Assembly (NCBI GenBank): GCA_021162655.1
Contig: JAGGYI010000139.1
Span: 1 to 42,458 of the forward strand
DNA: 42,458 bases
Source: Anaerolineae bacterium
GTDB lineage: Bacteria > Chloroflexota > Anaerolineae > UBA1429
Reading direction: 5' to 3'
The stretch's first letter is position 1. The number at the start of each line of letters is the position of its first letter. Under the pieces are notes generated by a model, which was not told the origin of the DNA, did not search any database, and worked only from the letters and a program-made list of their open reading frames with translations. The translations under genes and the position numbers were made by a program. Positions 16,760 through 41,674 of this stretch are shown here, piece after piece.

Positions 16760-17155
16760 ATGGGTGACCACCAAAAGATCGTCGTGATGGCCTGCAAGCA
16801 TTCGGCGGGCGAGGCCTTGCGAGAGCTCCAACGGGAGGGATGGGCTCTGCCCGATGGGGTAGAGTGGGTGGAGTTACCCTGTGGCGGCAGTTTGGACGAG
16901 CTTCACATCCTGCGGGCTTTTGAAGCAGGGGCAGCGGCTGTGTTGGTCCTCGCCTGTTATCATGGGGCTTGCCGTTCGCTGGATGGTAGCCGTTGGGCAG
17001 AAAAGCGCGTCCAGGCTATTCAGGAGATGCTGGCCGAGATAGGTATTGAGCAGGATCGGTTGGAGTTTCGCAACATTGCCCCGACGATGCCGGCTGATCT
17101 GGCCAGCTGGGTCGAGGCATTGCACCGGCGGGTTTTGGCTCCGGCGGGGGAATAG
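16760..17155 (+). CDS. mvhD: MvhD-like hydrogenase iron-sulfur subunit, divergent
   Basis: The 131-residue protein of the MvhD/FrhD family normally carries a 2Fe-2S cluster and passes electrons between HdrA and its partner. Visible are ACKHSAGE, the LPCGGSLDELHILRAFEAGA block (MvhD: CSGRV...AF..GADGVLV) and ACYHGACRSLDGSRWAEKR (MvhD: GCHxGDCHYxxGN). Cysteines are kept but spacing and flanks are less standard than in the second MvhD of this cluster (23876). It lies 16 bp after the split HdrA pair and 20 bp before metV, the arrangement expected for a MetVF-HdrA-MvhD complex. Confidence 0.8.
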   Translation: MGDHQKIVVMACKHSAGEALRELQREGWALPDGVEWVELPCGGSLDELHILRAFEAGAAAVLVLACYHGACRSLDGSRWAEKRVQAIQEMLAEIGIEQDRLEFRNIAPTMPADLASWVEALHRRVLAPAGE

Positions 17156-17174
17156 TTGCCTACCAGGGGGAAAG

Positions 17175-17846
17175 ATGATCGTCGCGGAACGCAAGCCATT
17201 AAGCGAAATCATCGCCAAGGTTGAGGGATATAATCGCTTGCTGATAGTGGGATGTAATACCTGCGTGGCGGTTTGCCAGGCAGGAGGAGAAAAAGAAGTG
17301 GCCATGCTGGCCGCTGCATTGCGTCTACGCTTCCGCGATCGGCAACCTGCGATGGAGATCATCGAGCGTTCAGTGGAGCGGCAGTGTGAGGAGGAATTCA
17401 ACCAAGTGCTGGCTGAAGACATCGCTCATGCGGAAGCGGTCCTCTCGATGGCCTGTGGGGTGGGAGTGCAGACCCTGGTAGAACAGTTCCCCGATGCCAT
17501 CGTCTTGCCGGCGGTGAACACCAAGTTTATGGGGCGCCCGGAGGAACGGGGAGTTTGGTCGGAGCGTTGCATTGGCTGTGGTAACTGCGTGCTCGACAAG
17601 TTTGGAGGGATCTGCCCCATCACTCGCTGCGCCAAGAGCTTGCTCAATGGCCCTTGTGGAGGGTCCGAGAACGGTCGCTGCGAGGTGGATCCTGAGAACC
17701 TCGAGTGTGCCTGGCAGCTCATTTACGACCGCCTGGCACGCCTGGGCCAGCTGGATCGCCTTTTGGAGATTGAACCTCCAAAGGATTGGTCTACTGCGCG
17801 CTATGGCGGGCCGCGCAAGATCGTCCGGAAGGATATGGTTCTATGA
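17175..17846 (+). CDS. metV: MetV, zinc/iron-sulfur subunit of methylene-THF reductase
   Basis: The 223-residue protein of the methylene-THF reductase C-terminal-domain family is the MetV partner of acetogen MetF. It has two cysteine-rich parts: Cys27/30/34 in VGCNTCVAVC, and a ferredoxin-like RCIGCGNCVLDKFGGICP continuing through CAKSLLNGPCGG (Cys 132/135/138/147/152/161/169). In acetogens MetV docks MetF and receives electrons from Hdr-type or RnfC2-type partners. The ATG at 17175 follows a GGGGGAAAG ribosome site; upstream in-frame starts would overlap mvhD heavily. Its stop overlaps metF by 4 bp, so the two are probably translated in stoichiometric amounts. Confidence 0.9.
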   Translation: MIVAERKPLSEIIAKVEGYNRLLIVGCNTCVAVCQAGGEKEVAMLAAALRLRFRDRQPAMEIIERSVERQCEEEFNQVLAEDIAHAEAVLSMACGVGVQTLVEQFPDAIVLPAVNTKFMGRPEERGVWSERCIGCGNCVLDKFGGICPITRCAKSLLNGPCGGSENGRCEVDPENLECAWQLIYDRLARLGQLDRLLEIEPPKDWSTARYGGPRKIVRKDMVL

Positions 17847-18775
17847 AATCTGGCAGCAAGCTTGAACGTATCCTTGCCTCTGGCGCTTTTGCTGTGACGG
17901 CAGAGCTGGGTCCTCCAAAGGGGCCCGACGTCAGCGTTGTGATGCGCAAGATGGAGCTCCTGCGGGGCGTCTGCGATGCGATCAATGTGACGGATAACCA
18001 GACGGCAATTGTCCGTTTGAGCAGCGCAGCCACTTGTGCCCTCTTGCATCAGAACGGCCTCGAGCCAGTGATGCAGATGACCTGCCGCGACCGCAACCGT
18101 TTGGCTATTCAGTCGGATATCTTTGGGGCGGTTGCCTTGGGGATACGCAACCTGCTCTGTTTGACGGGCGATCATCAGGTTTTTGGTAATCACCCCACCG
18201 CCAAGAACGTGTACGATCTGGATTCGATCCAGCTCATCCAGATGGTTGCGCGAATGCGCGATGAGAGTGTAACAGCGGGCGGGGATCCAGTGGAAGGGGA
18301 GGTGCCCCTCTTTATTGGTGGGGCGGCGAATCCCTTTGGCGATCCCTTTGAGATGCGTGTGATTCGCCTGGCGAAAAAGGTGGCTGCGGGGGTAGATTTC
18401 ATTCAGACCCAGTGCATTTTTGACTTGCCGCGCTTTCGAGAGTGGATGAAGCGGGTGGTCGACCAGGGGTTGCATGAAAAGGTTTATATCCTTGCAGGGG
18501 TGATGCCCCTCAAGTCCGTTGGGGCAGCTCGCTACATCAATAGGAACGTGCCTGGTTTTTCTGTGCCCAATTCCATTATCAAGAGGATGCGGGCAGCTGG
18601 CAAAGGGAAAAAGGCCCGAGAGGAAGGGATCAAGATTTGTGCCGAGATGATCCAGGAGCTACGCGAGATCGAGGGAGTGCGCGGGGTGCATATCATGGCC
18701 GTAGAGTGGGAAGAGGCGATTCGTCCCATTGTCGAGCGGGCGGGCCTCTTGCCTCGCCCTTCCCTGGAGGATTGA
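17843..18775 (+). CDS. metF: Methylenetetrahydrofolate reductase, MetF
   Basis: This 310-residue TIM-barrel flavoenzyme reduces methylene-THF to methyl-THF, the last step of the methyl branch. Recognisable blocks are VTAELGPPKGPDVSVV near the N-terminus, DAINVTDNQTAIVRLSS, MTCRDRNRLAIQSDIFGA, NLLCLTGDHQVFG, GVDFIQTQCIFD and ILAGVMPLKSVGAARYIN. It is the MetF type that works with MetV. The start overlaps the metV stop (ATGA), with GGAAGGAT upstream. In Moorella, MetVF forms a complex with HdrABC and MvhD. Here the neighbours are Hdr-like and MvhD-like proteins but no HdrB. Confidence 0.95.
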   Translation: MKSGSKLERILASGAFAVTAELGPPKGPDVSVVMRKMELLRGVCDAINVTDNQTAIVRLSSAATCALLHQNGLEPVMQMTCRDRNRLAIQSDIFGAVALGIRNLLCLTGDHQVFGNHPTAKNVYDLDSIQLIQMVARMRDESVTAGGDPVEGEVPLFIGGAANPFGDPFEMRVIRLAKKVAAGVDFIQTQCIFDLPRFREWMKRVVDQGLHEKVYILAGVMPLKSVGAARYINRNVPGFSVPNSIIKRMRAAGKGKKAREEGIKICAEMIQELREIEGVRGVHIMAVEWEEAIRPIVERAGLLPRPSLED

Positions 18776-27288: not shown

Positions 27289-27918
27289 ATGTTCACAGAG
27301 TTGAGGGTTAGCGAATTTCTTGAAAAGTTGGCCTCCAAAGAGCCCGTTCCGGGTGGAGGAAGCGGGGCAGCGTTGGGGGGAGCGTTGGGCGCGGCCCTTG
27401 TGAGCATGGTCTGCAACCTCACCATTGGCAAAAAGGGCTATGAGGATGTCCAAGAGAAGATGAGCGCCATCCTCGAGAAAAGCGAAGCCCTACGCGTGGA
27501 GTTGGCCAAGCTATTGGAGGAGGATACACAGGTCTATGGCCAGGTGATGGAGGCTTATCGTCTGCCCCGCAAGACGCCTGAGGAAAAAAAGGCGCGTACT
27601 CGGGCCCTGCAGGCTGCTTTGAAGGAGGCGGCAGAGGTTCCTCTCTCTGTAGCAGAGCGGTGCGCCCAGGTAGTGGAGCTGGCGCTGCCTGCCGCAGAGA
27701 TGGGCAACAAGTGGGCAGTGAGTGATGCCGGGGTGGCGGCACTCCTTGCGGAAGCGAGCATCCATGCCGCTCTTTTGAACGTTTACATCAATTTGGCCAG
27801 CATCAAGGATGAGGCGTTTGTGCAAAGCGTCCGTGAGCGGATCGCGGCGATTACGGAAGGCAAGACGGAAACTAAGGATCGTGTTCTAGCTATCGTACGG
27901 GAAAAGATAGGGGCCTAG
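27289..27918 (+). CDS. fchA: Methenyl-THF cyclohydrolase (FchA, cyclodeaminase-family)
   Basis: The 209-residue all-helical protein of the formimidoyl-THF cyclodeaminase family has the signature EPVPGGGSGAALGGALGAAL (about 18-37) and SVAERCAQVVELALPAAEMG, followed by the conserved NKWAVSDAGVAALLAEASIH. Stand-alone members serve either histidine degradation or one-carbon metabolism. Its place 33 bp before folD in a Wood-Ljungdahl cluster supports hydrolysis or formation of methenyl-THF. It may be essential here because the neighbouring FolD lacks the lysine required for cyclohydrolase activity. The ATG follows GAGGAGGGGCAGGAG. Confidence 0.88.
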   Translation: MFTELRVSEFLEKLASKEPVPGGGSGAALGGALGAALVSMVCNLTIGKKGYEDVQEKMSAILEKSEALRVELAKLLEEDTQVYGQVMEAYRLPRKTPEEKKARTRALQAALKEAAEVPLSVAERCAQVVELALPAAEMGNKWAVSDAGVAALLAEASIHAALLNVYINLASIKDEAFVQSVRERIAAITEGKTETKDRVLAIVREKIGA

Positions 27919-27951
27919 GGGCTTGCAAGGGAGAGTAGACAAGGGGGTGCT

Positions 27952-28812
27952 ATGACGGCGCAGATTCTAGATGGCCGAGCTCTGGCAAAGACGATCAGCC
28001 AGGAAATCGCCGAAGAAGTGGCTCAGTTTCAAGAGAAGCATGGCTGGGTTCCTGGCATTGCTGTAGTGCAGATTGGCGAGGACCCGGCTTCTTCTTGGTA
28101 TGTGCGCCAGATTAAAAAGAGCTTTACAAAAGCGGGGATGCGCTTCGAACTGCATACCCTGCCGGCAGATGCCGATGCAGAGGCGTTTACCATGCTATTG
28201 GCGCGCCTGAACCATGACCCGCGAACGAATGGAATCATCGTCCAGATGCCACTTCCCAAACATCTTCCTTCCCATCTTGTCACCGATGTTCTCGACCCCC
28301 AGAAAGACGTGGATGGTATCCATCCCCTGAATGCTGGCAAGCTTTTCCAGCAGAGTGGCGATACCTTTGCCCCAGCGACGCCCTTGGGCGGGATGGAGAT
28401 CCTTCATCGGTACAACATCGAGTTAAAGGGGAAGCATGCGGTGATGGTAGGGCGGAGCAACATCGTAGGGCGCCCTATGGCTTTATTGATGCTGCACGAG
28501 CATGCGACGGTGACCATCTGCCATTCCCGAACGAGGGATTTGGCTGCCATGACCAAGCAGGCGGATATCCTGGTGGCAGCGGTGGGCAAACCCAAGATCA
28601 TCACCGCAGAGATGATCCGCCCAGGGGCTGTGGTGATAGACTTTGGCGTGAACGTGGTAGATGGCAAGCTGGTGGGTGACGTGGATACAGAGGCGGCCAT
28701 GGAGGTGGCTGGGTATATCACCCCGGTGCCTGGAGGGACAGGCCCGATGACGAACGTGATGCTCATGCGGAATACTTTGGTGGCCGCCAAACGCCAGACA
28801 GGACAGGCATAG
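27952..28812 (+). CDS. folD: Methylene-THF dehydrogenase FolD, cyclohydrolase lysine replaced by Ile
   Basis: The 286-residue FolD has the expected blocks: GEDPASSWYVRQIKKS (42-57), GIIVQMPLPKHL, DPQKDVDGIHPLN, the Rossmann segment GRSNIVGRPMALLML and TPVPGGTGPMTNVMLMRNT near the end. It interconverts methylene-THF and methenyl-THF with NAD(P). In the active-site motif YVxxK the Lys (K56 in E. coli and human enzymes) is Ile54 here, in an ungapped match anchored by DPAS and Tyr50. Mutation of that Lys in characterised enzymes abolishes cyclohydrolase but can spare dehydrogenase activity. I therefore expect a dehydrogenase-only enzyme, with FchA doing the hydrolysis. Some family members with natural replacements may behave differently. 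Confidence 0.93.
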   Translation: MTAQILDGRALAKTISQEIAEEVAQFQEKHGWVPGIAVVQIGEDPASSWYVRQIKKSFTKAGMRFELHTLPADADAEAFTMLLARLNHDPRTNGIIVQMPLPKHLPSHLVTDVLDPQKDVDGIHPLNAGKLFQQSGDTFAPATPLGGMEILHRYNIELKGKHAVMVGRSNIVGRPMALLMLHEHATVTICHSRTRDLAAMTKQADILVAAVGKPKIITAEMIRPGAVVIDFGVNVVDGKLVGDVDTEAAMEVAGYITPVPGGTGPMTNVMLMRNTLVAAKRQTGQA

Positions 28813-28893: not shown

Positions 28894-30630
28894 ATGCTGA
28901 GTGATTTGGAGATCGCCCAGGCAGCAGAGATCAAACCGATTCTGGAGATTGCTGAAGAAGTTGGTCTCACCAAGGACGATTTGGAGCCGTATGGCTGGTA
29001 CAAGGCCAAGGTACATCTGGATGTTCTGGATCGTTTTAAAGACAAGCCTAATGCCAAGTATATCGATGTGACGGCCATCACGCCTACGCCTCTGGGGGAG
29101 GGCAAGACGACGACGACGATCGGGCTCAGCCAGGCTCTGGGCAGCCAGCTGGGCAAGCGTGTCTTTACCTGTATCCGTCAGCCATCGATGGGCCCGACGT
29201 TCGGGATCAAGGGGGGCGCTGCTGGTGGTGGATATTCGCAGATCATCCCGATGGAGGATTTCAACCTGCACCTGACGGGAGATATCCACGCGGTAGGGGT
29301 GGCCCACAACCTGCTGGCTGCGGCCATCGATGCGCGTATGATGCATGAGCGGCGCTTGAGCGATAAGGCGCTGGAGCGTGTGGGGTTGCGCCGTTTGAAC
29401 ATTGACCCCTTCTCTATCCTCTGGAACCGGGTTGTTGACGTAGAAGATGCTGCGATGCGCCAGATCGTCATTGGCCTGGGAGGGCGACGCAATGGTACGC
29501 CGCGGGAGACTGGCTTTGACATCACTGTGGCGAGTGAGGTGATGGCGATCCTAGCGTTGGCCACCAGCTTGAAGGACCTGCGGGAGCGGTTGGGGCGCAT
29601 CACCTTTGGGATGGATACCAAGGGGAACCCACTGACCGCGGAGGACTTGGGGGTGGCCGGTGCGATGGCGGTGCTGATGAAGGATGCATTGATGCCCAAC
29701 TTGATGCAGACCCTTGAGCACACGCCAGCCTTTGTTCATGCAGGGCCCTTTGCCAACATTGCCCATGGGAACTCGTCTTGTATTGCCGATATGATCGCCG
29801 TCAAGCTGGCTGATTACGTGGTCACCGAGTCGGGCTTTGGTGCCGATGTCGGGATGGAAAAGTTCTTTGATATCAAGTGTCGAGTCAGCGGGTTGATTCC
29901 CAATTGCGTGGTGATGGTGGCCACGGTGCGAGCGCTCAAGATGCATGGTGGGCTGGGCAAAGTGGTGCCGGGCAAGCCCTTGCCCAAGGAGCTCACGGAG
30001 GAGAACTTGGAGTATCTAGAGAAAGGATGCGCGAACCTGGTGGCCCACATCAACATTGCTAAACAGTTTGGCATCCCCGTGGTTGTGGCCATCAACCGCT
30101 TCACCACCGATACTGATGCCGAGATCGAGCTCATCCGCAAGATCGCTATTGACGCAGGCGCTGAGGATGCTGTTCCCAGTGAGCACTGGGCCAAGGGTGG
30201 CGCAGGGGCTCGTGAGTTGGCTGAGGCGGTGGTCAAGGCTTGCGAGAAGCCATCCAACTTCCAGTTCCTCTACCCCTTGGATATTCCCATCAAAGAAAAG
30301 ATAGAGATCATTGCTACCAAGGTGTACGGGGCAGATGGGGTTGATTACCTGCCTGAGGCAGAGCGCAAGATCCAGCTTTATACCAAGCTCGGCTATGACA
30401 AGATGCCCATCTGCATGGCCAAGACACACCTTTCGCTCTCTCACGACCCGAGCCTCAAGGGGGCACCTAAAGGCTGGCGTCTCCCGATTCGGGACATTCG
30501 GGCGAGTGTGGGCGCGGGGTTCCTCTATCCTCTTTGCGGTGATATGCGTACCATGCCCGGCTTGCCCAGGAGGCCAGCATTCATGGATGTGGATCTTACC
30601 GAAGAAGGGAAGGTCAAGGGGCTCTTCTAA
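28894..30630 (+). CDS. fhs: Formate-tetrahydrofolate ligase (formyl-THF synthetase)
   Basis: The 578-residue enzyme joins formate to THF using ATP, the entry step of the methyl branch. The P-loop is [19 protein letters not shown]. Further conserved parts are [79 protein letters not shown] and [15 protein letters not shown]. Length is close to the usual size, a little longer at the N-terminus. A strong AAGGAGGGAG precedes the ATG. No formate dehydrogenase gene is present in the window, so formate must come from an enzyme encoded elsewhere or from the environment. A hairpin follows the stop codon. Confidence 0.97.
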
Positions 30631-31253: not shown

Positions 31254-33230
31254 ATGGCTCAGGAGAAAAGCGTCGACAAAGCCGTACTTGAGGTCCTTGC
31301 CTGCTGCGATGGGGAGGTGGAAACCGCCTTTGATCGTGCTGAACAGGTAAAGCCCTGTCCCATCGGAGCGGATGGCATCTGTTGTAGGATATGCTTTATG
31401 GGGCCCTGCCGCTTAGTGGGCAAAGTTACTCGTGGAGTGTGTGGAGCCACTCGGGCGACGGTTGCGGCGAGGAACTTTGCCCGTGCGGTGGCAGGCGGCG
31501 CTGCGGCCCACTCGGATCACGGGCGCGACCTGGCCTTGACCCTTTTAGCTGTTGCCAAGGGGGAGGCTCAGGGATACCGCATTCGCGATGTGGCCAAGCT
31601 CTATATGGTGGCTGGCTACCTGGGAGTGGAGACCGAAGGCCGGAGCGTGAACGAGATCGCCCTGGACGTGGCAGAGAAAGCTCTGGAGAACTTTGGCCAG
31701 CAGCAAGGAGAGGTGACCTATATCTCTAGGGCTCCGCACAAGCGTCAGCAGCTTTGGCGCGACCTGGGTTTGGTTCCTCGAGGCGTCGACCGAGAGATCG
31801 TCGAGATTATGCACCGTACCCATATGGGAGTGGACCAGGATGCCGAGCATATTATGGACCAAGTCCTGCGGGCGGCCCTGGGGGATGGCTGGGGAGGTTC
31901 GATGCTGGCCACAGACCTCAGTGATATCCTTTTTGGTACCCCTAGCCCCCTGCAGAGCCAGGTGAACCTGGGGGTGCTCAAGGAAGATGAGGTGAACATC
32001 ATCGTTCATGGCCACGAGCCCACCCTTTCGGAGATGATCGTGGCAGCCTCCTCGGATCCCGAGTTGGTGGCCTATGCCCAGTCCAAAGGGGCCAAAGGGA
32101 TCAACCTGGCGGGCATCTGCTGTACAGCGAACGAGGTGCTTATGCGGCATGGCATTCCGCCGGCAGGGAACTTTCTTTCCCAGGAGTTGGCTTTGGCCAC
32201 CGGGGCCGTAGAGGCGATGATTGTGGATGTGCAGTGCATCATGCAGGCTCTGGCCACCGTTGCTCAGCAATATCATACTCTGCTCATCGCCACTTCTCCC
32301 AAGGCCAAGATCGAGGGGGCTACCTATATGGAGTTCGATGAACACAAAGCCTACGATTCGGCCAAGGAGATCGTCAGGGCAGCGATTGAGAACTATCCAA
32401 ATCGCAAAGAGGCCCGCATCCCCGCCATTCGCGAGAACTTGATCGCTGGGTTCTCTCATGAGTACATCCGCTACATGCAGGGTGGGTTGTATAGAGGCTC
32501 CTTCCGCCCGTTGAACGATGCGGTGGCGGCGGGGCGCATCCGTGGATTGGCAGGGGTGGTTGGCTGCAATAACGCCCGAGTGACCCATGATTCAGGTATC
32601 ACGCAGGTTATCCGTGAGCTAATCCGCAATGACGTGCTAGTAGTCGTCACCGGATGTGCTGCCACGGGGGCGGCCAAGCAGGCATACTTGCGCCCAGAGT
32701 TCATGGCGGAGGCTGGCCCTGGCCTGCGTGAGGTCTGTGAGGCCATCGGGGTACCGCCGGTGCTGCACGTGGGCTCGTGTGTCGATAACTCGCGTATTCT
32801 CACCATCCTCACCCAGTGTGCGACCGAGGGTGGTTTGGGCGAGGATATTGCTGATCTTCCTGCTGTGGGCATTTGCCCTGAATATATGTCGGAGAAGGCG
32901 CTTTCCATTGGGACCTATTGTGCAGCTTCGGGGGTCTATGTACTCTTTGGAGTGCGCAACCCCGTCGCTGGCAGTGAAGAGGTCGTTCGTATTATGACGG
33001 AAGGTTGGGAGGCTAAAGTAGGCGGCAAGATCGAGTTTGAGCCCGATATTGAAAAGCTCATTGAAAAGGCTTTGGCACACATCGATGCCAAGCGGGCTGC
33101 GCTGGGCTTGCCGGCCTATGACCCCACTCGCTATGGAGAGAGTGGAGATCGTCTTGTGGAGCAGCTTCGGAGCAGCTTGGGGGAGGAGCAGGCAGCTGCC
33201 CTCTATTCTGTGCCCGAGCTGTCAGAGTAG
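31254..33230 (+). CDS. cooS: Anaerobic carbon-monoxide dehydrogenase catalytic subunit
   Basis: The 658-residue Ni-Fe CODH reduces CO2 to CO for acetyl-CoA synthesis, or works in reverse. N-terminal cysteines for the B and D clusters are at 17/18, 35, 43/44, 47, 52 and 63 (ICCRICFMGPCRL). C-cluster regions include INLAGICCTANEVLMRHGI, VDVQCIMQALATVAQ, GVVGCNNARVTHDSG, VTGCAATGAAKQA and HVGSCVDNSRI. It is the bacterial homodimeric CooS/AcsA type, not the archaeal CdhA. The ribosome site is GGGAGAG. AcsB follows after 13 bp, as expected for a bifunctional CODH/ACS complex. Confidence 0.97.
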   Translation: MAQEKSVDKAVLEVLACCDGEVETAFDRAEQVKPCPIGADGICCRICFMGPCRLVGKVTRGVCGATRATVAARNFARAVAGGAAAHSDHGRDLALTLLAVAKGEAQGYRIRDVAKLYMVAGYLGVETEGRSVNEIALDVAEKALENFGQQQGEVTYISRAPHKRQQLWRDLGLVPRGVDREIVEIMHRTHMGVDQDAEHIMDQVLRAALGDGWGGSMLATDLSDILFGTPSPLQSQVNLGVLKEDEVNIIVHGHEPTLSEMIVAASSDPELVAYAQSKGAKGINLAGICCTANEVLMRHGIPPAGNFLSQELALATGAVEAMIVDVQCIMQALATVAQQYHTLLIATSPKAKIEGATYMEFDEHKAYDSAKEIVRAAIENYPNRKEARIPAIRENLIAGFSHEYIRYMQGGLYRGSFRPLNDAVAAGRIRGLAGVVGCNNARVTHDSGITQVIRELIRNDVLVVVTGCAATGAAKQAYLRPEFMAEAGPGLREVCEAIGVPPVLHVGSCVDNSRILTILTQCATEGGLGEDIADLPAVGICPEYMSEKALSIGTYCAASGVYVLFGVRNPVAGSEEVVRIMTEGWEAKVGGKIEFEPDIEKLIEKALAHIDAKRAALGLPAYDPTRYGESGDRLVEQLRSSLGEEQAAALYSVPELSE

Positions 33231-33243
33231 GAGGTGATAGGAG

Positions 33244-35526
33244 ATGTCGCGATATATTGCCAAGGCGGCCATTCGCGGTGCGAATCTGATCGTCAGCGAA
33301 GCAGAAAAGATGTTGCAGGAGGCCATCAAAGAATTGGGGCCAGAGACGCCCGTGGTCTTTACGAATACCGCCTACTATTTGCCGGTGATCCTGGGGTTCA
33401 CCGGCATCGAGGTGCAGACGCTGGGGGATCTTCAACAGGTGATCGATTACGCCAAGAAGCTGCTTCACCCCGTCCCTGGAGATACGCTTTGGCTCCCTTA
33501 CTTGGGCGAGACGCTGGATTGCGGTGTGGCCACTCTCCTGGCAGAGGAGGCCATTGAGGGTATTCGCTTTGCCCGCGGATTGCAACCGGAACCCATCCCA
33601 GGGTTGCAGCTTACAGGAACTAGCTTTACCAGCCCTGATGGCAATAGCCAGGAGGAGGAAGGAGGCTTTGCCAATGGCCCCATCGATGACGTGCAGTTGC
33701 GTGCTTGGGGTATCCAGCTCGTCGATGGTCGTATGCCGGGGTTTGCGGCCATCGTAGGCGCAGCCCGGAGCAATGAGGCGGCCGTCTCGATTGTCCGCGA
33801 GCTGCAGCAGAGGAATATCTTGGTTTTTCTCTCCGGAAACGTGAACGGGCGGAGCATCATTCATCAGCTGATGGAAGAAGGCGTCGAGATGGGCTACGAT
33901 ACGTATATCGTCCCCTTTGGCACTGATACCATCTCAGCGATCTATGCCCTCGGCTTTGCGACACGCTCTGCGCTGACGTTTGGAGGCCTCTCGGGAGGAC
34001 AGGCGCGAGATATCCTTCTCTACAACAAATATCGCGTTTTCGCCTTTGTCCTTGCCCTCGGTGAGGTGGATGACCTCAAGTATGCGACGGCAGCAGGGGC
34101 CCTTAACTATGGGTTCCCCGTCATCGCCGATACGGTGATCCCGCAGATTCTCCCCACAGGCATCACTCAATATGAGCACGTGATCAGCATGCCCTTTGAT
34201 GACATTGAGGGGGAGACGGATGCAGAGAAAGCTCGCCGCTTGGTTCAGCGGTGTATCGAAGTACGAGGTATCAAGGTCAAGATCACCGAGGTGCCCATCC
34301 CCGTGCCCTATGGGAGTGCCTTTGAGGGCGAGCGTGTGCGCCGTGCGGATATGCGTATCGAGTTTGGAGGGCGCAACGCGCGGGCCTTTGAGTATCTCCG
34401 CATGGCTGACTTTGATGAGGTAGAAGATGGCAAGATCACCCTCATAGGTCCCTCCTTTGAGGATGTTGAAGTCGGTGGGGCGATGAACCTGGGCATCTTG
34501 GTAGAGGTGGCTGGCCGCAAGATGCAGGAGGATTTCGAGCCCGTTCTGGAGCGGCAGATCCACTACTTTATTAACGGAGCTTCGGGTGTCCAGCACATCG
34601 GCCAGCGAGATATTACCTGGATTCGCTTCAGCAAGGCTGCGGTGGAAAAGGGTTTCCAGATCAAGCACTTGGGCGAGATCCTCTATGCTCGCTTCCATGC
34701 AGACTTTGGCTCCATTGTGGACAAGGTCCAGGTGACGCTGATCACCGACGAAGAGCTCTTCCAAGAGTGGCTTCAGAAGGCGCGCGAAGCCTATCAGGCA
34801 CGCAATATTCGCCTGGCAGACATGACGGACGAGTCGGTGGACGAGTTCTATAGTTGTACCCTCTGCCAGAGCTTCGCCCCGAACCATGTCTGTATCGTCT
34901 CGCCGGAGCGCTTGGGGCTGTGCGGTGCATACAACTGGTTGGACTGCAAAGCCTCCTACCAGATCAACCCGACAGGCCCCAACCAGCCAGTTCCCAAGGG
35001 CATTTGTCTGGATCCGGTGTACGGCGTCTGGCAGGGGCCGAACGAGTTCGTCTATCAGAACTCCCATGGAACGGTGGAGCGGGTCTCTATGTATTCAATC
35101 ATGCGCGACCCGATGACGGCCTGTGGCTGCTTTGAGTGCATCGCCATGGTCATCCCAGAGGCGAATGGGATTATGGTCGTCTCTCGAGAGGATCCTAGCA
35201 TGACCCCCGTGGGGATGAAGTTCTCTACCCTGGCTGGCATCGCTGGCGGTGGTCTTCAGACCCCGGGCATGATGGGTGTGGGCAAGTATTACCTCCTGAG
35301 CAAGAAATTCATCTCGGCTGAAGGAGGTTTCAAGCGGGTGGTTTGGCTCTCCAAGATCCTTAAAGAGACGATGAGGGATGAGCTTCAGGCCGTTTGTGAG
35401 CGCGAAGGAGTGCCTGATCTCCTTGACAAGATCGCCGATGGGGATACGGCGACCACTATTGAGGAGCTGTTGGCCTTCTTGGAGGAGAAAGGGCATCCCG
35501 CTTTGACGATGGATCCCATCTTTTAG
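33244..35526 (+). CDS. acsB: Acetyl-CoA synthase (CO-methylating), AcsB
   Basis: The 760-residue bacterial-type ACS assembles acetyl-CoA from CO, a methyl-corrinoid and CoA. It keeps the N-terminal CODH-contacting domain (MSRYIAKAAIRGANLIVSEA) that archaeal CdhC lacks. A-cluster ligands are Cys 538, 541, 550 and 560 (SCTLCQSFAPNHVC, RLGLC) and the distal nickel site Cys627-Gly628-Cys629 (TACGCFEC), all intact. The protein is slightly longer than the Moorella enzyme. GAGGTGATAGGAG precedes the ATG. It is flanked by cooS and the corrinoid-protein genes in functional order. Confidence 0.97.
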   Translation: MSRYIAKAAIRGANLIVSEAEKMLQEAIKELGPETPVVFTNTAYYLPVILGFTGIEVQTLGDLQQVIDYAKKLLHPVPGDTLWLPYLGETLDCGVATLLAEEAIEGIRFARGLQPEPIPGLQLTGTSFTSPDGNSQEEEGGFANGPIDDVQLRAWGIQLVDGRMPGFAAIVGAARSNEAAVSIVRELQQRNILVFLSGNVNGRSIIHQLMEEGVEMGYDTYIVPFGTDTISAIYALGFATRSALTFGGLSGGQARDILLYNKYRVFAFVLALGEVDDLKYATAAGALNYGFPVIADTVIPQILPTGITQYEHVISMPFDDIEGETDAEKARRLVQRCIEVRGIKVKITEVPIPVPYGSAFEGERVRRADMRIEFGGRNARAFEYLRMADFDEVEDGKITLIGPSFEDVEVGGAMNLGILVEVAGRKMQEDFEPVLERQIHYFINGASGVQHIGQRDITWIRFSKAAVEKGFQIKHLGEILYARFHADFGSIVDKVQVTLITDEELFQEWLQKAREAYQARNIRLADMTDESVDEFYSCTLCQSFAPNHVCIVSPERLGLCGAYNWLDCKASYQINPTGPNQPVPKGICLDPVYGVWQGPNEFVYQNSHGTVERVSMYSIMRDPMTACGCFECIAMVIPEANGIMVVSREDPSMTPVGMKFSTLAGIAGGGLQTPGMMGVGKYYLLSKKFISAEGGFKRVVWLSKILKETMRDELQAVCEREGVPDLLDKIADGDTATTIEELLAFLEEKGHPALTMDPIF

Positions 35527-35585
35527 AGGACCCTTGGTATAGATAGTCAGAAAGGCATCTTGGCTGTGAAAGGAGCGTGAAGTAG

Positions 35586-36557
35586 ATGGCTGCAAGTGTG
35601 CCTTCGGTACAGGAGAAATGGACGGGAAAGGTTCGAGAGGTCACTTTAGGTGCCCTGCCGGCGGATGGTGGCACACGGGGGCGTACGGTGACCGTTGGTG
35701 GGGAGAACACACTGCCCTTCCTCCATTTTGAAGGGGAGGTTCCTCATCGCCCAGCGATCGCCATAGAGATCTGGGATCATCCCCCTGAGGACTGGTCTCC
35801 CATCCTTTTGGAGGCTTGGGGTGACGTGCTCCAAGATGTGGGGGCCTGGGCCAAAAAGGCTGAGGAGGTGGGGGCAGACCTCATTGCCTTGACCTTGGAT
35901 AGTGCTCACCCTGAGAAGGGCAACACCTCTGGGGAGCAAGCGAGGGCCACGGTGCGCAAGGTTCTTGAGGCAACCACCCTCCCGCTGATCGTCTACGGGC
36001 CGGGCCAGGTGGATAAGGATAATGAAGTGCTTGTGGCTGTGGCGGAGGAGGCCGCTGGTGAGCGGGTAGCCTTGGGGAACTGTGAGGAGGGAAATTATCG
36101 CACCATTGTGGCAGCGGCTCTGGCTCACGGGCATCTCGTCATCGGCAAGACTCCTATCGACGTGAACTTGGCCAAGCAGCTGAATATCCTCATCAGCGAT
36201 ATGCGCTTGGATCTGGACCGCATTTTGATGGACCCCACGACTGGAGCCTTGGGTTACGGCTTAGAGTACACTTATTCGGTGATGGAGCGTCTCAAACTGG
36301 CCGCCTTGATGGGCGATAGCATGACCCAGCAGCCCATGATCGTCACGACGGGCTTTGAGGCTTGGCGGGCCAAAGAGGCTCGGGTCAATGAAGGGGTCCC
36401 TGCAGAGTGGGGAGATTGGACGAAGCGAAGCCTGCTTTGGGAGACGATAACGACAATGGCCCTCCTCGAGGCGGGGGCGAATATCGTCGTCATGCGCCAT
36501 CCCGAGGCGGTGAAAAAGATCCGCCAGGTCATCGACAAGTTGATGACCAAGGCATAG
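35586..36557 (+). CDS. acsD: Corrinoid iron-sulfur protein, small subunit
   Basis: The 323-residue TIM-barrel subunit (delta/CdhD type) pairs with AcsC to carry the cobamide that takes the methyl group from methyl-THF to ACS. Diagnostic stretches are TVGGENTLPFLHFEGEVP near the N-terminus, ALTLDSAHPEKGNTS, PLIVYGPGQVDKDNEVL, GNCEEGNYRTIVAAAL and DPTTGALGYGLEYTYSVMER. No cofactor cysteines are expected in this subunit. The ATG follows AAGGAGCG. It lies 59 bp after acsB and 46 bp before acsC. Confidence 0.95.
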   Translation: MAASVPSVQEKWTGKVREVTLGALPADGGTRGRTVTVGGENTLPFLHFEGEVPHRPAIAIEIWDHPPEDWSPILLEAWGDVLQDVGAWAKKAEEVGADLIALTLDSAHPEKGNTSGEQARATVRKVLEATTLPLIVYGPGQVDKDNEVLVAVAEEAAGERVALGNCEEGNYRTIVAAALAHGHLVIGKTPIDVNLAKQLNILISDMRLDLDRILMDPTTGALGYGLEYTYSVMERLKLAALMGDSMTQQPMIVTTGFEAWRAKEARVNEGVPAEWGDWTKRSLLWETITTMALLEAGANIVVMRHPEAVKKIRQVIDKLMTKA

Positions 36558-36603
36558 TTTGTTTGCCGATAGCCATGTTTGCTGAAGGAAGGAGAGTGTA
36601 GCC

Positions 36604-37947
36604 ATGGGATTGAGTGGGTTGGCAATATATAAATTGTTGCCCAAGACGAACTGCAAGGAGTGTGGCTTCCCTACCTGTTTGGCTTTTGCGATGAAGCTGG
36701 CCGCTCGGCAAGTGGAGCTTTCTGCTTGCCCATACGTCTCGGATGAGGCAAAGGCTGTTTTGGATGCTGCCTCAGCACCGCCTATCCGCTTGGTCAAGGT
36801 GGGGCCTGAGGAGCGCAAGGTCGAGGTAGGGAACGAGACGGTACTCTTTCGCCATGAGAAGACCTTTTACCATCCCCCTGGCTTTTTCTATCGCTTGAAG
36901 GACGATGAGCCGGCGGATGCCTTTGCGGCCAGGTTGGAAGCCGTGGCGAATTATGGTGTGGAGCGTGTGGGTATCGAGTTAAAGGCGGATGGGATTGCGC
37001 TCCAGAGTGCCGCGGGTAGTGCAGATGCTTTTGGAGAGCGCGCTGCTCAGGTGGTAAGTGCGGGATTACCCCTTGTCTTGATCGCAGACGATCCTCAGGT
37101 GATGGAAGCGGGGCTCAAAGCAGCTCAGGGAATGGCCCCCCTGATCTATGCTGCGAATGCAGAGAATTGGGAAACCATGGCCTCTTTGGCTGCCCAGTAC
37201 GGAGCGCCTTTGGCTGTCTTTGGGGAGGGGCTGGAGACTTTGGCTGAGTTGACGGAAAAGATCAAGGGCAAGGGCGTCGAGGACATGGTCTTGGACCCAG
37301 GGACAAGGGGGTGGAGCGATTCGCTGGCGGCCTTTACCCAGCTGCGCCGTCTGGCGATCAAAAAGAACTATCGACCGCTGGGGTACCCCATCATTGCCTT
37401 CCCTGGAGAGGGGACCGAGGACGAGCTGGAGGAAGCTCTCCTAGCGGGCCAGTATGTGGCCAAATATGCGGGGTTCATTGTTATGGACCACTTTGATCCG
37501 GCGAGCCTCTATCCGCTCTTGACTTTGCGGCAGAACATCTACACCGATCCGCAAAAGCCCATCCAGGTGAGCCCGGGTCTCTATGAGATTGGCAAGCCCA
37601 CGCCGGAATCCCCCTTGCTGGTGACGACCAATTTCTCCTTGACGTACTTTAGCGTGGCGGGCGAGGTGGAGGGCAGCGGCATTCCTGCCTGGTTATTGGT
37701 TGCCGACTCGGAGGGAATGTCGGTGTTGACGGCCTGGGCCGCGGGCAAGTTCGACGCGGAGAGGATTGCCAAAGCGGTCAAGTCTATGGGGGTGGCGGAA
37801 AAGGTTGCCCACCGCAAGATCATCATCCCTGGCTATGTCTCGAGCATTTCGGGCGAGTTGGAGGATGAGCTTCCCGATTGGGAGATCCTGGTCGGGCCGA
37901 GGGAGGCGATCAATATCCCCAGCTTCCTCAAGCAGTTTGCTGCCTAG
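36604..37947 (+). CDS. acsC: Corrinoid iron-sulfur protein, large subunit
   Basis: The 447-residue gamma subunit (AcsC/CdhE) begins with the 4Fe-4S domain NCKECGFPTCLAFAMKLA (Cys 17, 20, 25 and 42) that reductively activates the cobalt. A TIM barrel and a C-terminal cobamide-binding domain (about 330-447, with GLYEIGKPTPESPLLVTTNF, SVLTAWAAGKFDAERIAK and HRKIIIPGYVSSISGELED) follow. All features are intact. The ATG is preceded by GGAAGGAGAG. The activator for this protein is encoded directly downstream. Confidence 0.96.
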   Translation: MGLSGLAIYKLLPKTNCKECGFPTCLAFAMKLAARQVELSACPYVSDEAKAVLDAASAPPIRLVKVGPEERKVEVGNETVLFRHEKTFYHPPGFFYRLKDDEPADAFAARLEAVANYGVERVGIELKADGIALQSAAGSADAFGERAAQVVSAGLPLVLIADDPQVMEAGLKAAQGMAPLIYAANAENWETMASLAAQYGAPLAVFGEGLETLAELTEKIKGKGVEDMVLDPGTRGWSDSLAAFTQLRRLAIKKNYRPLGYPIIAFPGEGTEDELEEALLAGQYVAKYAGFIVMDHFDPASLYPLLTLRQNIYTDPQKPIQVSPGLYEIGKPTPESPLLVTTNFSLTYFSVAGEVEGSGIPAWLLVADSEGMSVLTAWAAGKFDAERIAKAVKSMGVAEKVAHRKIIIPGYVSSISGELEDELPDWEILVGPREAINIPSFLKQFAA

Positions 37948-37994
37948 GTTTATTGAGGGTGTTTTTACCGATAGTGTAGAAAAGGAGGACTCTC

Positions 37995-39938
37995 ATCGCA
38001 GACAAGTGCAGAGTGACGCTGTTGCCTGCTCAGCAGGTGGTTTATGTAGAAAGGGGGGCCCTGCTGCAGGAGGCTATCGAGGCAGCAGGGATCCCCTTGG
38101 CTCTCCCTTGTGGGGGCCAAGGACGCTGTGGGCGCTGTATAGTGGTCGTTCAAGAGGGCCAAGTGCGCCGCCGCTCGGTGGCGCGCCTAACTCCCCAGGA
38201 GGTAGAACAAGGGTACGCCCTTGCCTGTCAAACCCTGGTCGAGGGGGACCTCGTTGTCTATGTGCCCCCTCAGGAGGAGAGGATTGTACGCCTGGAGGTG
38301 GGTCTGGCGGCCGAGAAGGAGGCCCCAGAGGTTGTTGTCTGTGAGCATGAACAGGCGCCTTGGGTGGCCAAGTGCCATTTAAAGGTGGACCCCCCTTCCT
38401 TGGCAGATAACACTACCGATTTTGAACGCCTCCAACGAGAGCTTGTGCGGCAACATGGGATAACGGGATTGGTTGCCAGTTTGCCCATCATGCGCAAGTT
38501 GGCAGGAGCGCTCCGGGCAGAGGATTGGGAGGTGACGGCCGTCGTAGAAAAGGGGACTTGGGCAAGCTCGCAGGGACCTCCCAGGTTGGTGGACATTCGC
38601 CCTGGAGATACAACGGAACACACCCTGGGGTTGGCCATCGACATCGGTACGACTACCAATGTCGTCTATTTGGTGGATTTGCAAAGCAAGGCTTTGCTTG
38701 GGCGCGCTTCTGCATACAATGGGCAGATCTCCTGTGGTGAGGATGTCATCTCGCGGATCATCTACTCTCAGCGCCCAGGGGGGCTAGAGCACCTCCAACA
38801 GCTTGTCTTGAACACTTTGAACGGCTTAATCGATGAGCTCCTCGCAGCGCATGGGGCAAGCCCTGAGGATGTGTATTTTGCCACCGTGGCAGGTAACCCC
38901 ACGATGATTCACCTTTTCCTGGGGTTAGATCCTCGCCATATTCGCTTGGAGCCCCATATCCCCACGGTGAATCATCCCCCGCCTGTGCGAGCGGGTGAGC
39001 TTGGCTTACGAATACACCCAGAGGCGACAGTGGATTGCCTCCCTGGGGTTGGTGCCTATGTGGGGGCAGATATCACTGCGGGGGTGCTACGTTCACGGAT
39101 GAGTGAGGAAGAGCCCATTACCCTTTTCATTGACGTGGGTACGAATGGGGAGCTCGTCCTGGGGAATAAAGACTGGCTGATCTCTTGCGCTTGCTCGGCC
39201 GGGCCGGCCTTTGAGGGCTCGGGCGTGGTCTCGGGGATGCGGGCTACTGTGGGGGCCATCCAGGAAGTGTGGATCAATCCTCAGACCTTTGAGCCCACCT
39301 ATGAAACGATAGGCAATGCCCCGCCAAAGGGTATTTGTGGTTCGGGGATGATTTCATTGTTGGGCGAGATGTTTATCACGGGGGTTATCGATAAGAGCGG
39401 CCATGTGAATCGCAGCTTGGATACCCCCCGGGTGCGAGAGGGCCCTGGCGGTGGGGAGTATGTCGTTGCCTGGGCCGCCGAGACGGAGGATAAAAAGAGG
39501 GATATCGTCCTCACAGAGGTGGATATTCAGAACCTCTTGCGAGCCAAGGCGGCCATCTATGCGGGGATGAACGTGCTGGCCACCAGTGTGGGTCTGGAGC
39601 TAGAGGACATTGAGCGCATCCTCATTGGCGGGGCTTTTGGCAAGTACATCGATATCGAGAAGGCCATCGAGATAGGCCTCTTGCCCGATATGCCCTGGGA
39701 TCGCTTTGCATATCTAGGCAACACCTCGGTACAAGGGGCTTATCTCTGTCTTCTCTGCCCAGAGCATCGCGCTATGGTGCGCGAGATTGCCAGCAAGATG
39801 ACCTACCTGGAGCTCAGTGCAGATAATAGCTTTATGAACGCCTTTACTTCGGCGCTCTTTTTGCCACATACGGATTTGGAGCAGTTTCCCTCTGTGCGAG
39901 AGAAGCTTCGCAATGTGGAACGGCTTGGAGGGTCATGA
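37995..39938 (+). CDS. RACo-like ATP-dependent activator of the corrinoid protein (2Fe-2S + ASKHA)
   Basis: This protein reductively reactivates Co(II) corrinoid to Co(I). An N-terminal 2Fe-2S domain (PCGGQGRCGRC, later CQT) is followed by a linker and an ASKHA ATPase domain (LGLAIDIGTTTNVVYLVDL, ATVAGNPTMIHLFLG, TLFIDVGTNGELVLG, ACSAGPAFEGSGV, ERILIGGAFGKYIDIEKA). The start is unusual. The only good ribosome site (GGAGG, 37984-37988) lies 6 nt before an in-frame ATC at 37995, which would give MADKCRVTLLPAQQ, the usual N-terminus. The first standard start is GTG at 38013, 24 nt from that site, which would remove part of the first beta strand. I give 37995 as the more likely start; the GTG reading has 641 residues. 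The stop overlaps cooC. Confidence 0.88.
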   Translation: MADKCRVTLLPAQQVVYVERGALLQEAIEAAGIPLALPCGGQGRCGRCIVVVQEGQVRRRSVARLTPQEVEQGYALACQTLVEGDLVVYVPPQEERIVRLEVGLAAEKEAPEVVVCEHEQAPWVAKCHLKVDPPSLADNTTDFERLQRELVRQHGITGLVASLPIMRKLAGALRAEDWEVTAVVEKGTWASSQGPPRLVDIRPGDTTEHTLGLAIDIGTTTNVVYLVDLQSKALLGRASAYNGQISCGEDVISRIIYSQRPGGLEHLQQLVLNTLNGLIDELLAAHGASPEDVYFATVAGNPTMIHLFLGLDPRHIRLEPHIPTVNHPPPVRAGELGLRIHPEATVDCLPGVGAYVGADITAGVLRSRMSEEEPITLFIDVGTNGELVLGNKDWLISCACSAGPAFEGSGVVSGMRATVGAIQEVWINPQTFEPTYETIGNAPPKGICGSGMISLLGEMFITGVIDKSGHVNRSLDTPRVREGPGGGEYVVAWAAETEDKKRDIVLTEVDIQNLLRAKAAIYAGMNVLATSVGLELEDIERILIGGAFGKYIDIEKAIEIGLLPDMPWDRFAYLGNTSVQGAYLCLLCPEHRAMVREIASKMTYLELSADNSFMNAFTSALFLPHTDLEQFPSVREKLRNVERLGGS

Positions 39939-40708
39939 TGACGGTAACGATAGCTGTGGCGGGCAAGGGGGGAACTGGTAAAACCCTCTTTGCCGCCCTG
40001 ACCATCAAATATCTTTTGGAAAGAGGACGCACCCCCATCCTGGCTATCGATGGGGATCCCAGTTCGAACTTGAACCTGGCTTTGGGGATGGAGCTACGTG
40101 AGACGATCGGCCAGATTCGCGAAGAGACGCAGAAACAGGTCTCGAGTGGACGCTTTCAAGTGGGCATCTCCAAGCCAGATTGGTTCGAGTACAAGGTGTA
40201 CGAGTGCCTGGTTGAGGGTGAAGGGGTGGACCTTTTGGCGATGGGGCGACCCGAGGGGCCGGGGTGCTACTGCGCGGCCAACAACATGCTCCGCCAATGT
40301 ATCGACCGTTTGGGCGATGAGTATGCCTATGTGGTGATCGACAACGAGGCGGGGATGGAGCATATTAGTCGTCAGACTACTCGGGATGTGGACTATCTCT
40401 TTATTCTCAGTGATCCGAGTTATCGTGGGGTGATTGCGGCAGCGCGTATTGCCGAGCTGGCCCAGGAGCTGGGGACGCGCATCGGGAAGGAATACCTCGT
40501 GATCAACAACGTCCAGGGGGAGCTCCCAGAAGTATTGGAGAACAGAGTCAAAGAATTGGGTGTACCTTTCCTGGGGGCAATTCCGCGCGATCAGGCAGTG
40601 ATGGAATGCGATTTCGAGGGTAAACCTCTCATCACGCTGGGGGAGGACTCGTTGGTGTACCCAGCTGTCTGCCGATTGTTGGATCAAGCCTTTGCGGATT
40701 CGAAATAA
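39935..40708 (+). CDS. cooC: CODH/ACS nickel-insertion ATPase (CooC/AcsF)
   Basis: The 257-residue MinD/ParA-type ATPase has the deviant Walker A GKGGTGKT (10-17) and the CooC metal-binding pair Cys111-x-Cys113 in GPGCYCAANNMLR, where a dimer would hold one nickel. Other typical regions are AIDGDPSSNLNLALG, VVIDNEAGMEHISRQT and VINNVQGELP. It loads nickel into CooS and/or AcsB. The start overlaps the activator's stop (ATGA) with GGAGGG upstream; ATG at 39938 is an equivalent alternative. Whether it serves CooS, AcsB or both cannot be told from sequence. Confidence 0.95.
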   Translation: MMTVTIAVAGKGGTGKTLFAALTIKYLLERGRTPILAIDGDPSSNLNLALGMELRETIGQIREETQKQVSSGRFQVGISKPDWFEYKVYECLVEGEGVDLLAMGRPEGPGCYCAANNMLRQCIDRLGDEYAYVVIDNEAGMEHISRQTTRDVDYLFILSDPSYRGVIAAARIAELAQELGTRIGKEYLVINNVQGELPEVLENRVKELGVPFLGAIPRDQAVMECDFEGKPLITLGEDSLVYPAVCRLLDQAFADSK

Positions 40709-40753
40709 GCTTTGTGCCGAAAGGCGGAGCGGTTACGGGAAGGAGGAAAAGAG

Positions 40754-41674
40754 ATGCTAATCGTTGGAGAGAACATCCATATCCTCTCGCCAAGGGTGAA
40801 GCGGGCGATTCGCGAGCGCGATACGGAGGCGATTCAGAAGCTGGCCAAAGCCGAAGTGGAGCATGGGGCCCACATGCTGGATCTGAACATTGGCCCCCAG
40901 CGGCGCCATGGCCCCGAGGTGATGGAGTGGATCGTCAACGCTGTGCAAGAGGTGGTGGATGTGCCCCTTTCCTTTGACACAACCAACCTGGAAGCCATCG
41001 AGGTGGGGCTCAAGCTGGCTAAGAAGCAAGCGATGATCAACTCTACCTCGGCCGAGCCTGAGCGCTTGGAGAAGGTGCCTCCGCTGGCAGCCAAGTATAA
41101 TGCCAAGCTGATTGCCTTGATGATGGGCAAGGGAGGTATTCCAGTGACGGCCGAGGAGCGGGTGGCCATCGCCATTGAGCACTTGGTGCCAAGAGCGATG
41201 GAAGTGGGCATCCCCATGGAGGATCTCTATCTTGACCCTCTGGTGCTCACGGTGGCGGGATGTCAGGAGTATTGCCCCCATGCCATTGAGGCAGTGCGCT
41301 ATGTGAAGCAAGGGATGGATCCGGCTCCTCAAACCATTGCTGGGTTGAGCAACGTGTCGAACCATGTTCCCACAGAGAACCGCAGCTTGATCAACCGGGT
41401 TTACCTTGTGATGCTGATGGCGGCGGGGCTGGACGCTGTGATCGCCGATCCCCTGGACGACAAGTTGATGGAAGTCATTCGCATCATTGAGGAGAGGGAT
41501 GACAGCACGCCTGTGGGCAGGTTGCTCTTGGCCCTCTATGATGCGACGGCGGCGATGGAGGAGCTCGATCCCTCCCAAGTGGATATGGACGATCCGGAGC
41601 AGGTGGCCATTTGGAAGACGGTTCAGATTCTGTTGAACAAGGTGATCTTTACCGAGTCCTATCTACGCACCTGA
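40754..41674 (+). CDS. acsE: Methyl-THF:corrinoid iron-sulfur protein methyltransferase
   Basis: The 306-residue pterin-binding TIM-barrel enzyme transfers the methyl group from methyl-THF to the corrinoid protein, joining the two branches. Visible are MLIVGENIHILSPRVKRAI at the start, HGAHMLDLNIGPQRRHGPEV, VPLSFDTTNLEAIEVGL, AMINSTSAEPERL, DLYLDPLVLTV and TIAGLSNVSNHVPTENRSLI. Length matches Moorella AcsE/MeTr. The ATG at 40754 follows AAGGAGG at good spacing; an in-frame TTG or GTG-type start at 40712 would add an unconserved 14 residues. It is the last gene of the cluster, 16 bp before the terminator stem. Confidence 0.96.
   Translation: MLIVGENIHILSPRVKRAIRERDTEAIQKLAKAEVEHGAHMLDLNIGPQRRHGPEVMEWIVNAVQEVVDVPLSFDTTNLEAIEVGLKLAKKQAMINSTSAEPERLEKVPPLAAKYNAKLIALMMGKGGIPVTAEERVAIAIEHLVPRAMEVGIPMEDLYLDPLVLTVAGCQEYCPHAIEAVRYVKQGMDPAPQTIAGLSNVSNHVPTENRSLINRVYLVMLMAAGLDAVIADPLDDKLMEVIRIIEERDDSTPVGRLLLALYDATAAMEELDPSQVDMDDPEQVAIWKTVQILLNKVIFTESYLRT

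Follow-up and report, generated by a model that had tools for sequence, protein, structure and literature searches.

The FolD encoded in a Wood-Ljungdahl gene cluster of an Anaerolineae bacterium is very probably a methylene-THF dehydrogenase without cyclohydrolase activity, with the adjacent FchA taking over that step; the cyclohydrolase half would be lost because its catalytic lysine, Lys54, is Ile. This FolD is a member of an old and widely distributed subfamily that accompanies FchA and in which Lys54, Gln98 or both are missing; its state is not a loss specific to this genome. An earlier note on this DNA had proposed a division of labour between the two genes; their association argues for it, although as an old subfamily trait and not as a loss of this genome.

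The window, by which we mean the whole stretch of 42,458 nucleotides, corresponds to contig C84 in a Chloroflexota genome of 3.1 Mb that is 95.7% complete, and its gene set is a Wood-Ljungdahl cluster. All genes discussed lie on the plus strand, beginning with those for a MetV-like protein of the methylene-THF reductase C-terminal family (17046..17846; PF12225, 2e-37) and a MetF-like methylene-THF reductase, the next methyl-branch step (17786..18775; PF02219, 2e-45), and continuing with Fe-S and HdrA-like, MvhD-like and FNR-like oxidoreductase genes. These are followed by fchA, a predicted stand-alone methenyl-THF cyclohydrolase of 209 aa (27289..27918; PF04961, 2e-72), folD, a predicted methylene-THF dehydrogenase of 286 aa with the cyclohydrolase lysine replaced (27952..28812; PF00763 and PF02882), and, 3' of folD in the same cluster, the formate-THF ligase gene fhs (28894..30630; PF01268, 9e-266). 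Pfam matches identify the remaining Wood-Ljungdahl genes (31254..41674) as those for CODH, ACS, corrinoid protein subunits, RACo, a CooC-like ATPase and a pterin-binding methyltransferase. As the earlier note had it, a stand-alone FchA is encoded directly upstream of folD, the two genes being separated by 33 bp.

We observed directly the sequence, the order of the genes, what the genome contains and the association with FchA; from them we infer the activities and the flux order in the methyl branch. Fhs would make formyl-THF, FchA would interconvert 10-formyl-THF and methenyl-THF, FolD would convert methenyl-THF to methylene-THF, and MetF/MetV would yield methyl-THF, followed by CODH/ACS. The HdrA-like protein (1497 aa, window 19344-23837) carries an inserted glutamate-synthase-type Fer4_20/Pyr_redox NAD(P)H module, and its gene adjoins that of the MvhD-like protein, near MetF/MetV; this combination suggests an electron-bifurcating methylene-THF reductase complex.

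Both FolD domains are recognized by Pfam (PF02882, 2.5e-66; PF00763, 2e-34), and the window FolD aligns over its full length with solved FolDs, with the YVxxK motif aligned gap-free. The motif reads YVRQI (DPASSWYVRQIKKSF): residue 54, encoded by ATT (28111..28113) at the site of E. coli Lys54 and human Lys56, is Ile, and the lysine of the YxxxK motif of bifunctional FolDs is absent. Tyr50, Asp121 and Gln98 (codon 98, 28243..28245), the second cyclohydrolase residue, which many relatives lack, are all present. The earlier note had read the motif the same way from an alignment anchored on DPAS and Tyr50, and both the reading and the alignment stand; it had numbered the lysine K56 in both E. coli and human enzymes, which is correct for the human enzyme only. 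The gap-free alignment, and the same residue in close relatives, rule out that Ile54 stems from a frame shift or a misaligned position. The closest relatives are found in Chloroflexi and Anaerolineae MAGs, and since Ile or Leu54 recurs in the nearest ones (identities of 79% to 54%), with FchA adjoining or close by, Ile54 is neither chance nor a sequencing slip.

The PF00763 search of this 95.7% complete genome gave one match, so that the window FolD is its single FolD and a second, cyclohydrolase-competent copy was not found; a PF02882 match on contig C26 was rejected, having 22.8 bits, under the cut-off, and no PF00763 match. FchA is the sole FTCD_C protein found by profile search, which gave no formiminotransferase (FTCD_N) in the genome; FchA therefore has no evident role in histidine degradation. 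It is intact, matches the solved FchA 7vg4 (8e-49) and has the conserved residue in every one of the 14 columns on which 59 relatives agree to 95% or more. NCBIfam NF045657 (FchA) is the best and sole family matched, at 248 bits against a curated equivalog cut-off of 275.

Published mutants show what these residues contribute. E. coli FolD K54N has undetectable cyclohydrolase and about 19% of dehydrogenase activity, in line with the earlier note's statement that mutants of this lysine lose the former and can keep the latter, and Q98H has about 1% and 8%, respectively (PMC5688156). Because K54N also lowers dehydrogenase activity, loss of the lysine is not free in every background. Human K56 and Q100 mutants, studied by Sundararajan and MacKenzie in 2002, reportedly likewise lose cyclohydrolase, with dehydrogenase better kept.

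Our pooled set of 322 FolD sequences, rows that share ancestry, covered Chloroflexota, Clostridia and Bacilli, with a few from elsewhere; we called intact those with Lys54 and Gln98 and broken those lacking either or both. All 111 FchA-adjacent FolDs were broken and none intact, versus 60 broken and 151 intact among the 211 others. Thinning at 97% identity left 108 broken and 0 intact adjacent FolDs versus 57 and 144 non-adjacent ones, and representatives below 60% identity gave 54 and 0 versus 38 of 88 broken and 50 intact. The earlier note had asked whether loss of the lysine tracks fchA; it does by these counts, except that Bacilli keep Lys54 and exchange Gln98 for Glu. What FchA-linked FolDs lose is just Lys54 and Gln98, in several combinations: Tyr50, Asp121, Gly173 and Pro260 are conserved across the FchA-adjacent FolDs, and residue 54 in those that lack the lysine is only Ile, Leu, Ala or Val. 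The replacement types are Ile, Leu or Val54; Ala54 with Phe, Leu or Met98; Gln54; and Lys54 with Glu98, and the route differs by lineage, with Ile/Leu54 in Chloroflexota, Ala54 plus Phe98 in Clostridia and Lys54 plus Glu98 in Bacilli.

On unrooted FolD trees from which columns 54 and 98 had been left out, the broken state changes 5-6 times, Lys54 6-7 times and Gln98 about 14 times. A single set, moderately supported (SH-aLRT 93), takes in most of the broken FolDs from Chloroflexota, Clostridia and Bacilli; outside it lie the Gln54 FolDs of Clostridia and the tandem Ile54 copies described below. With so few changes of the broken state, the association is an old trait, co-inherited and with a small number of additional origins, and does not stand for 111 separate losses; an independent-pairs test found only 2 usable pairs and had no power. 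Lys54 is assumed to be ancestral, since E. coli, human and most bacteria have Lys.

In 46 loci of named genomes, the Ile/Leu54 FolDs of Chloroflexota had FchA adjoining or near (one locus ends before the site) and the Lys54 FolDs had none. We also sampled 151 Chloroflexota genomes systematically, searched them with PF00763 and PF04961 and read FolD in 112 of them; Lys54 is absent from all 53 FchA-adjacent FolDs read, and 106 of the 112 genomes obey the rule. These comprise 65 genomes in which every FolD read is broken and a short FTCD_C is present (53 FchA-adjacent, 12 with the short FTCD_C elsewhere) and 41 with intact FolD (29 without FTCD_C, 12 with FTCD_C in a long frame only). Four of the six off-rule genomes combine intact FolD with a short FTCD_C of divergent sequence, and in one of the four, G013, a formiminotransferase lies nearby; NCBIfam gave no match to the ORFs searched as divergent FTCD_C in G087, G071, G013 and G095, some of which were the wrong ORF. 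The other two, G027 (Val54/Leu98 FolD, no FTCD_C, genome 87% complete) and G120 (Lys54/Glu98 FolD, one FTCD_C within a 634-aa frame), count against the association and are at best partly explained.

In genomes without FchA, FolDs lacking the lysine are nearly all accompanied by a second, intact FolD (G050, G106, G151). Two of these, G050 (L074, G050:C15) and G106 (L071, G106:C13), are small Chloroflexota genomes with tandem FolDs, Ile54 then Lys54, possibly a second way of splitting both activities. A separate FolD paralogue (L104, L106, L108, L109, L111-L113, L116-L120, L122, L124, L125) is not FchA-adjacent and has lost both Lys54 and Gln98 (Val/Leu54, Leu98, KDVDGLG); its genome usually also has an FchA-linked FolD. 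One Lys54/Gln98 FolD (L097), from G095, where the divergent FTCD_C is the only one, sits within the part of the tree that lacks the lysine, as a possible reversion or misplacement.

Loss of the lysine in many FolDs from genomes lacking fchA, which the earlier note had named as evidence against its proposal, did not occur: in our sample of 147 Clostridia genomes, wherever FTCD_C is absent the FolDs read have Lys54/Gln98 (49 of 49). Among Clostridia genomes with FchA, Lys54 is absent in 47 of 49 FolD rows, mostly as Ala, Ile, Leu or Val54 with Phe, Leu or Met98 and in five cases as Gln54/Gln98. The two Lys54 rows come from G168, whose second FolD is broken and adjoins FchA, and from G213, whose intact FolD alongside an FTCD_C gene counts against the association. 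Seven FchA-adjacent FolDs of Bacilli (L338-L344) keep Lys54 with Glu at 98, presumably a different route to the same loss; the remaining Bacilli FolDs have Lys54/Gln98, save a single copy with Glu98 in G317, where an intact FolD accompanies it. Bacilli with a strong FTCD_C and intact FolD were rejected as counterexamples: the FTCD_C genes of L313, L316 and L318 lie in a formiminotransferase and/or Fhs neighbourhood, and of these three loci a nearby formiminotransferase was demonstrated for L313 and L316. A Nitrospirae FolD with Thr54 and no FTCD_C (L043) was set aside likewise, as the same genome has a second FolD, L307, with Lys54/Gln98.

Other points also count against the main reading: the window FolD keeps Gln98, FchA scores under the NF045657 cut-off, and the evolutionary events are few. 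The first would suit a FolD that is still bifunctional, in which Gln98, Lys55, Lys56 or water supports the cyclohydrolase and FchA merely boosts a high-flux pathway; Tyr50, Gln98 and Asp121 are indeed intact, and Lys55 and Lys56 are close to site 54. We rejected Lys55 and Lys56 as stand-ins, however, because neither is conserved as a substitute: position 55 is Lys in 2 of 104 FchA-adjacent FolDs without Lys54, and a basic residue at 56 is common to intact FolDs. Gln98 is also gone in many relatives, cyclohydrolase is undetectable in E. coli K54N (PMC5688156), and a role for FchA as flux booster leaves the 111 of 111 broken FchA-adjacent FolDs unexplained, so that we regard a bifunctional window FolD as improbable. 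Still less credible is that FchA is a formimino-THF cyclodeaminase of histidine or purine breakdown, placed here by chance, with spontaneous hydrolysis replacing the cyclohydrolase. FTCD_C proteins do include cyclodeaminases, some sampled Bacilli with intact FolD have FTCD_C adjoining a formiminotransferase, and methenyl-THF can turn over without an enzyme (PMC5688156); yet this genome has no formiminotransferase by profile search, the gene sits among Wood-Ljungdahl genes with FchA as its best named match, and the E. coli K54N strain grows very slowly (PMC5688156).

A dehydrogenase-only FolD served by FchA, the reading we prefer, is compatible with a neutral cause of the loss: Lys54 may have decayed after the arrival of FchA, without FolD becoming specialized as a better dehydrogenase, a view to which we give a little under an even chance. 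Variation at residue 54 (Ile, Leu, Val, Ala, Gln) and the repeated changes of Gln98 on the tree are expected for an unneeded function; the restriction of FchA-adjacent FolDs without the lysine to four residues at 54 hints at constraint, and Tyr50 and Asp121 stay conserved.

Taken more broadly, we lean slightly towards the view that FolDs without Lys54, Gln98 or both form an old, phylum-spanning, dehydrogenase-only group co-inherited with FchA, that the two residues and the neighbourhood predict wrong 'bifunctional FolD' annotations, and that a second intact FolD substitutes for a missing FchA, as in the tandems of G050 and G106. We met no statement of such a cross-phylum rule in the literature searched, which takes in few of the subscription journals. 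Automatic annotation probably misnames the whole group lacking the lysine, because among the NCBIfam matches listed for the window FolD 25 of 25 carry dehydrogenase/cyclohydrolase names. Neither annotation nor modelling should treat the FolD of this Wood-Ljungdahl operon from Chloroflexota as bifunctional; Lys54 and Gln98 set against FchA linkage offer a simple, testable sequence rule for predicting FolD cyclohydrolase activity, useful for metabolic models and for enzyme choice in synthetic formate assimilation.

The division of labour between FolD and FchA is itself already known from Clostridium perfringens, and the window pair adds a Chloroflexota case. Aluri et al. are said to have found in 2016 that C. 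perfringens FolD has dehydrogenase activity alone and that the cyclohydrolase comes from FchA. There too, FolD is annotated as bifunctional, FchA is its partner for the cyclohydrolase, and both occur with Fhs; the window shares the stand-alone FchA adjoining FolD, and no cyclohydrolase-competent FolD was found in its 95.7% complete genome. It differs in lying in a Chloroflexota Wood-Ljungdahl operon and in having Ile54 with Gln98 kept, unlike the sampled Clostridia with FchA, which mostly have Ala/Ile54 with Phe/Leu/Met98.

Structure 1EDZ, which we take to be yeast Mtd1, a monofunctional NAD-dependent dehydrogenase, matches the window FolD only distantly (E 2.4e-13 over residues 10-188), and cofactor and context differ; we rejected an Mtd1-type assignment on this weak and partial match. 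Mtd1 is described as a monofunctional FolD relative in PMC6443876, which cites Barlowe and Appling 1990 and also mentions a monofunctional methylene-THF dehydrogenase of Peptostreptococcus productus; the latter, a bacterial enzyme reported to be monofunctional, resembles the predicted window FolD in this. The C. perfringens study of Aluri et al. 2016 (doi 10.1099/mic.0.000209) appears by title among the works cited in PMC7219735. To the bifunctional E. coli FolD and human MTHFD1 the window FolD is homologous over its full length and keeps Tyr50, Gln98 and Asp121, with Ile in place of E. coli Lys54 (human K56).
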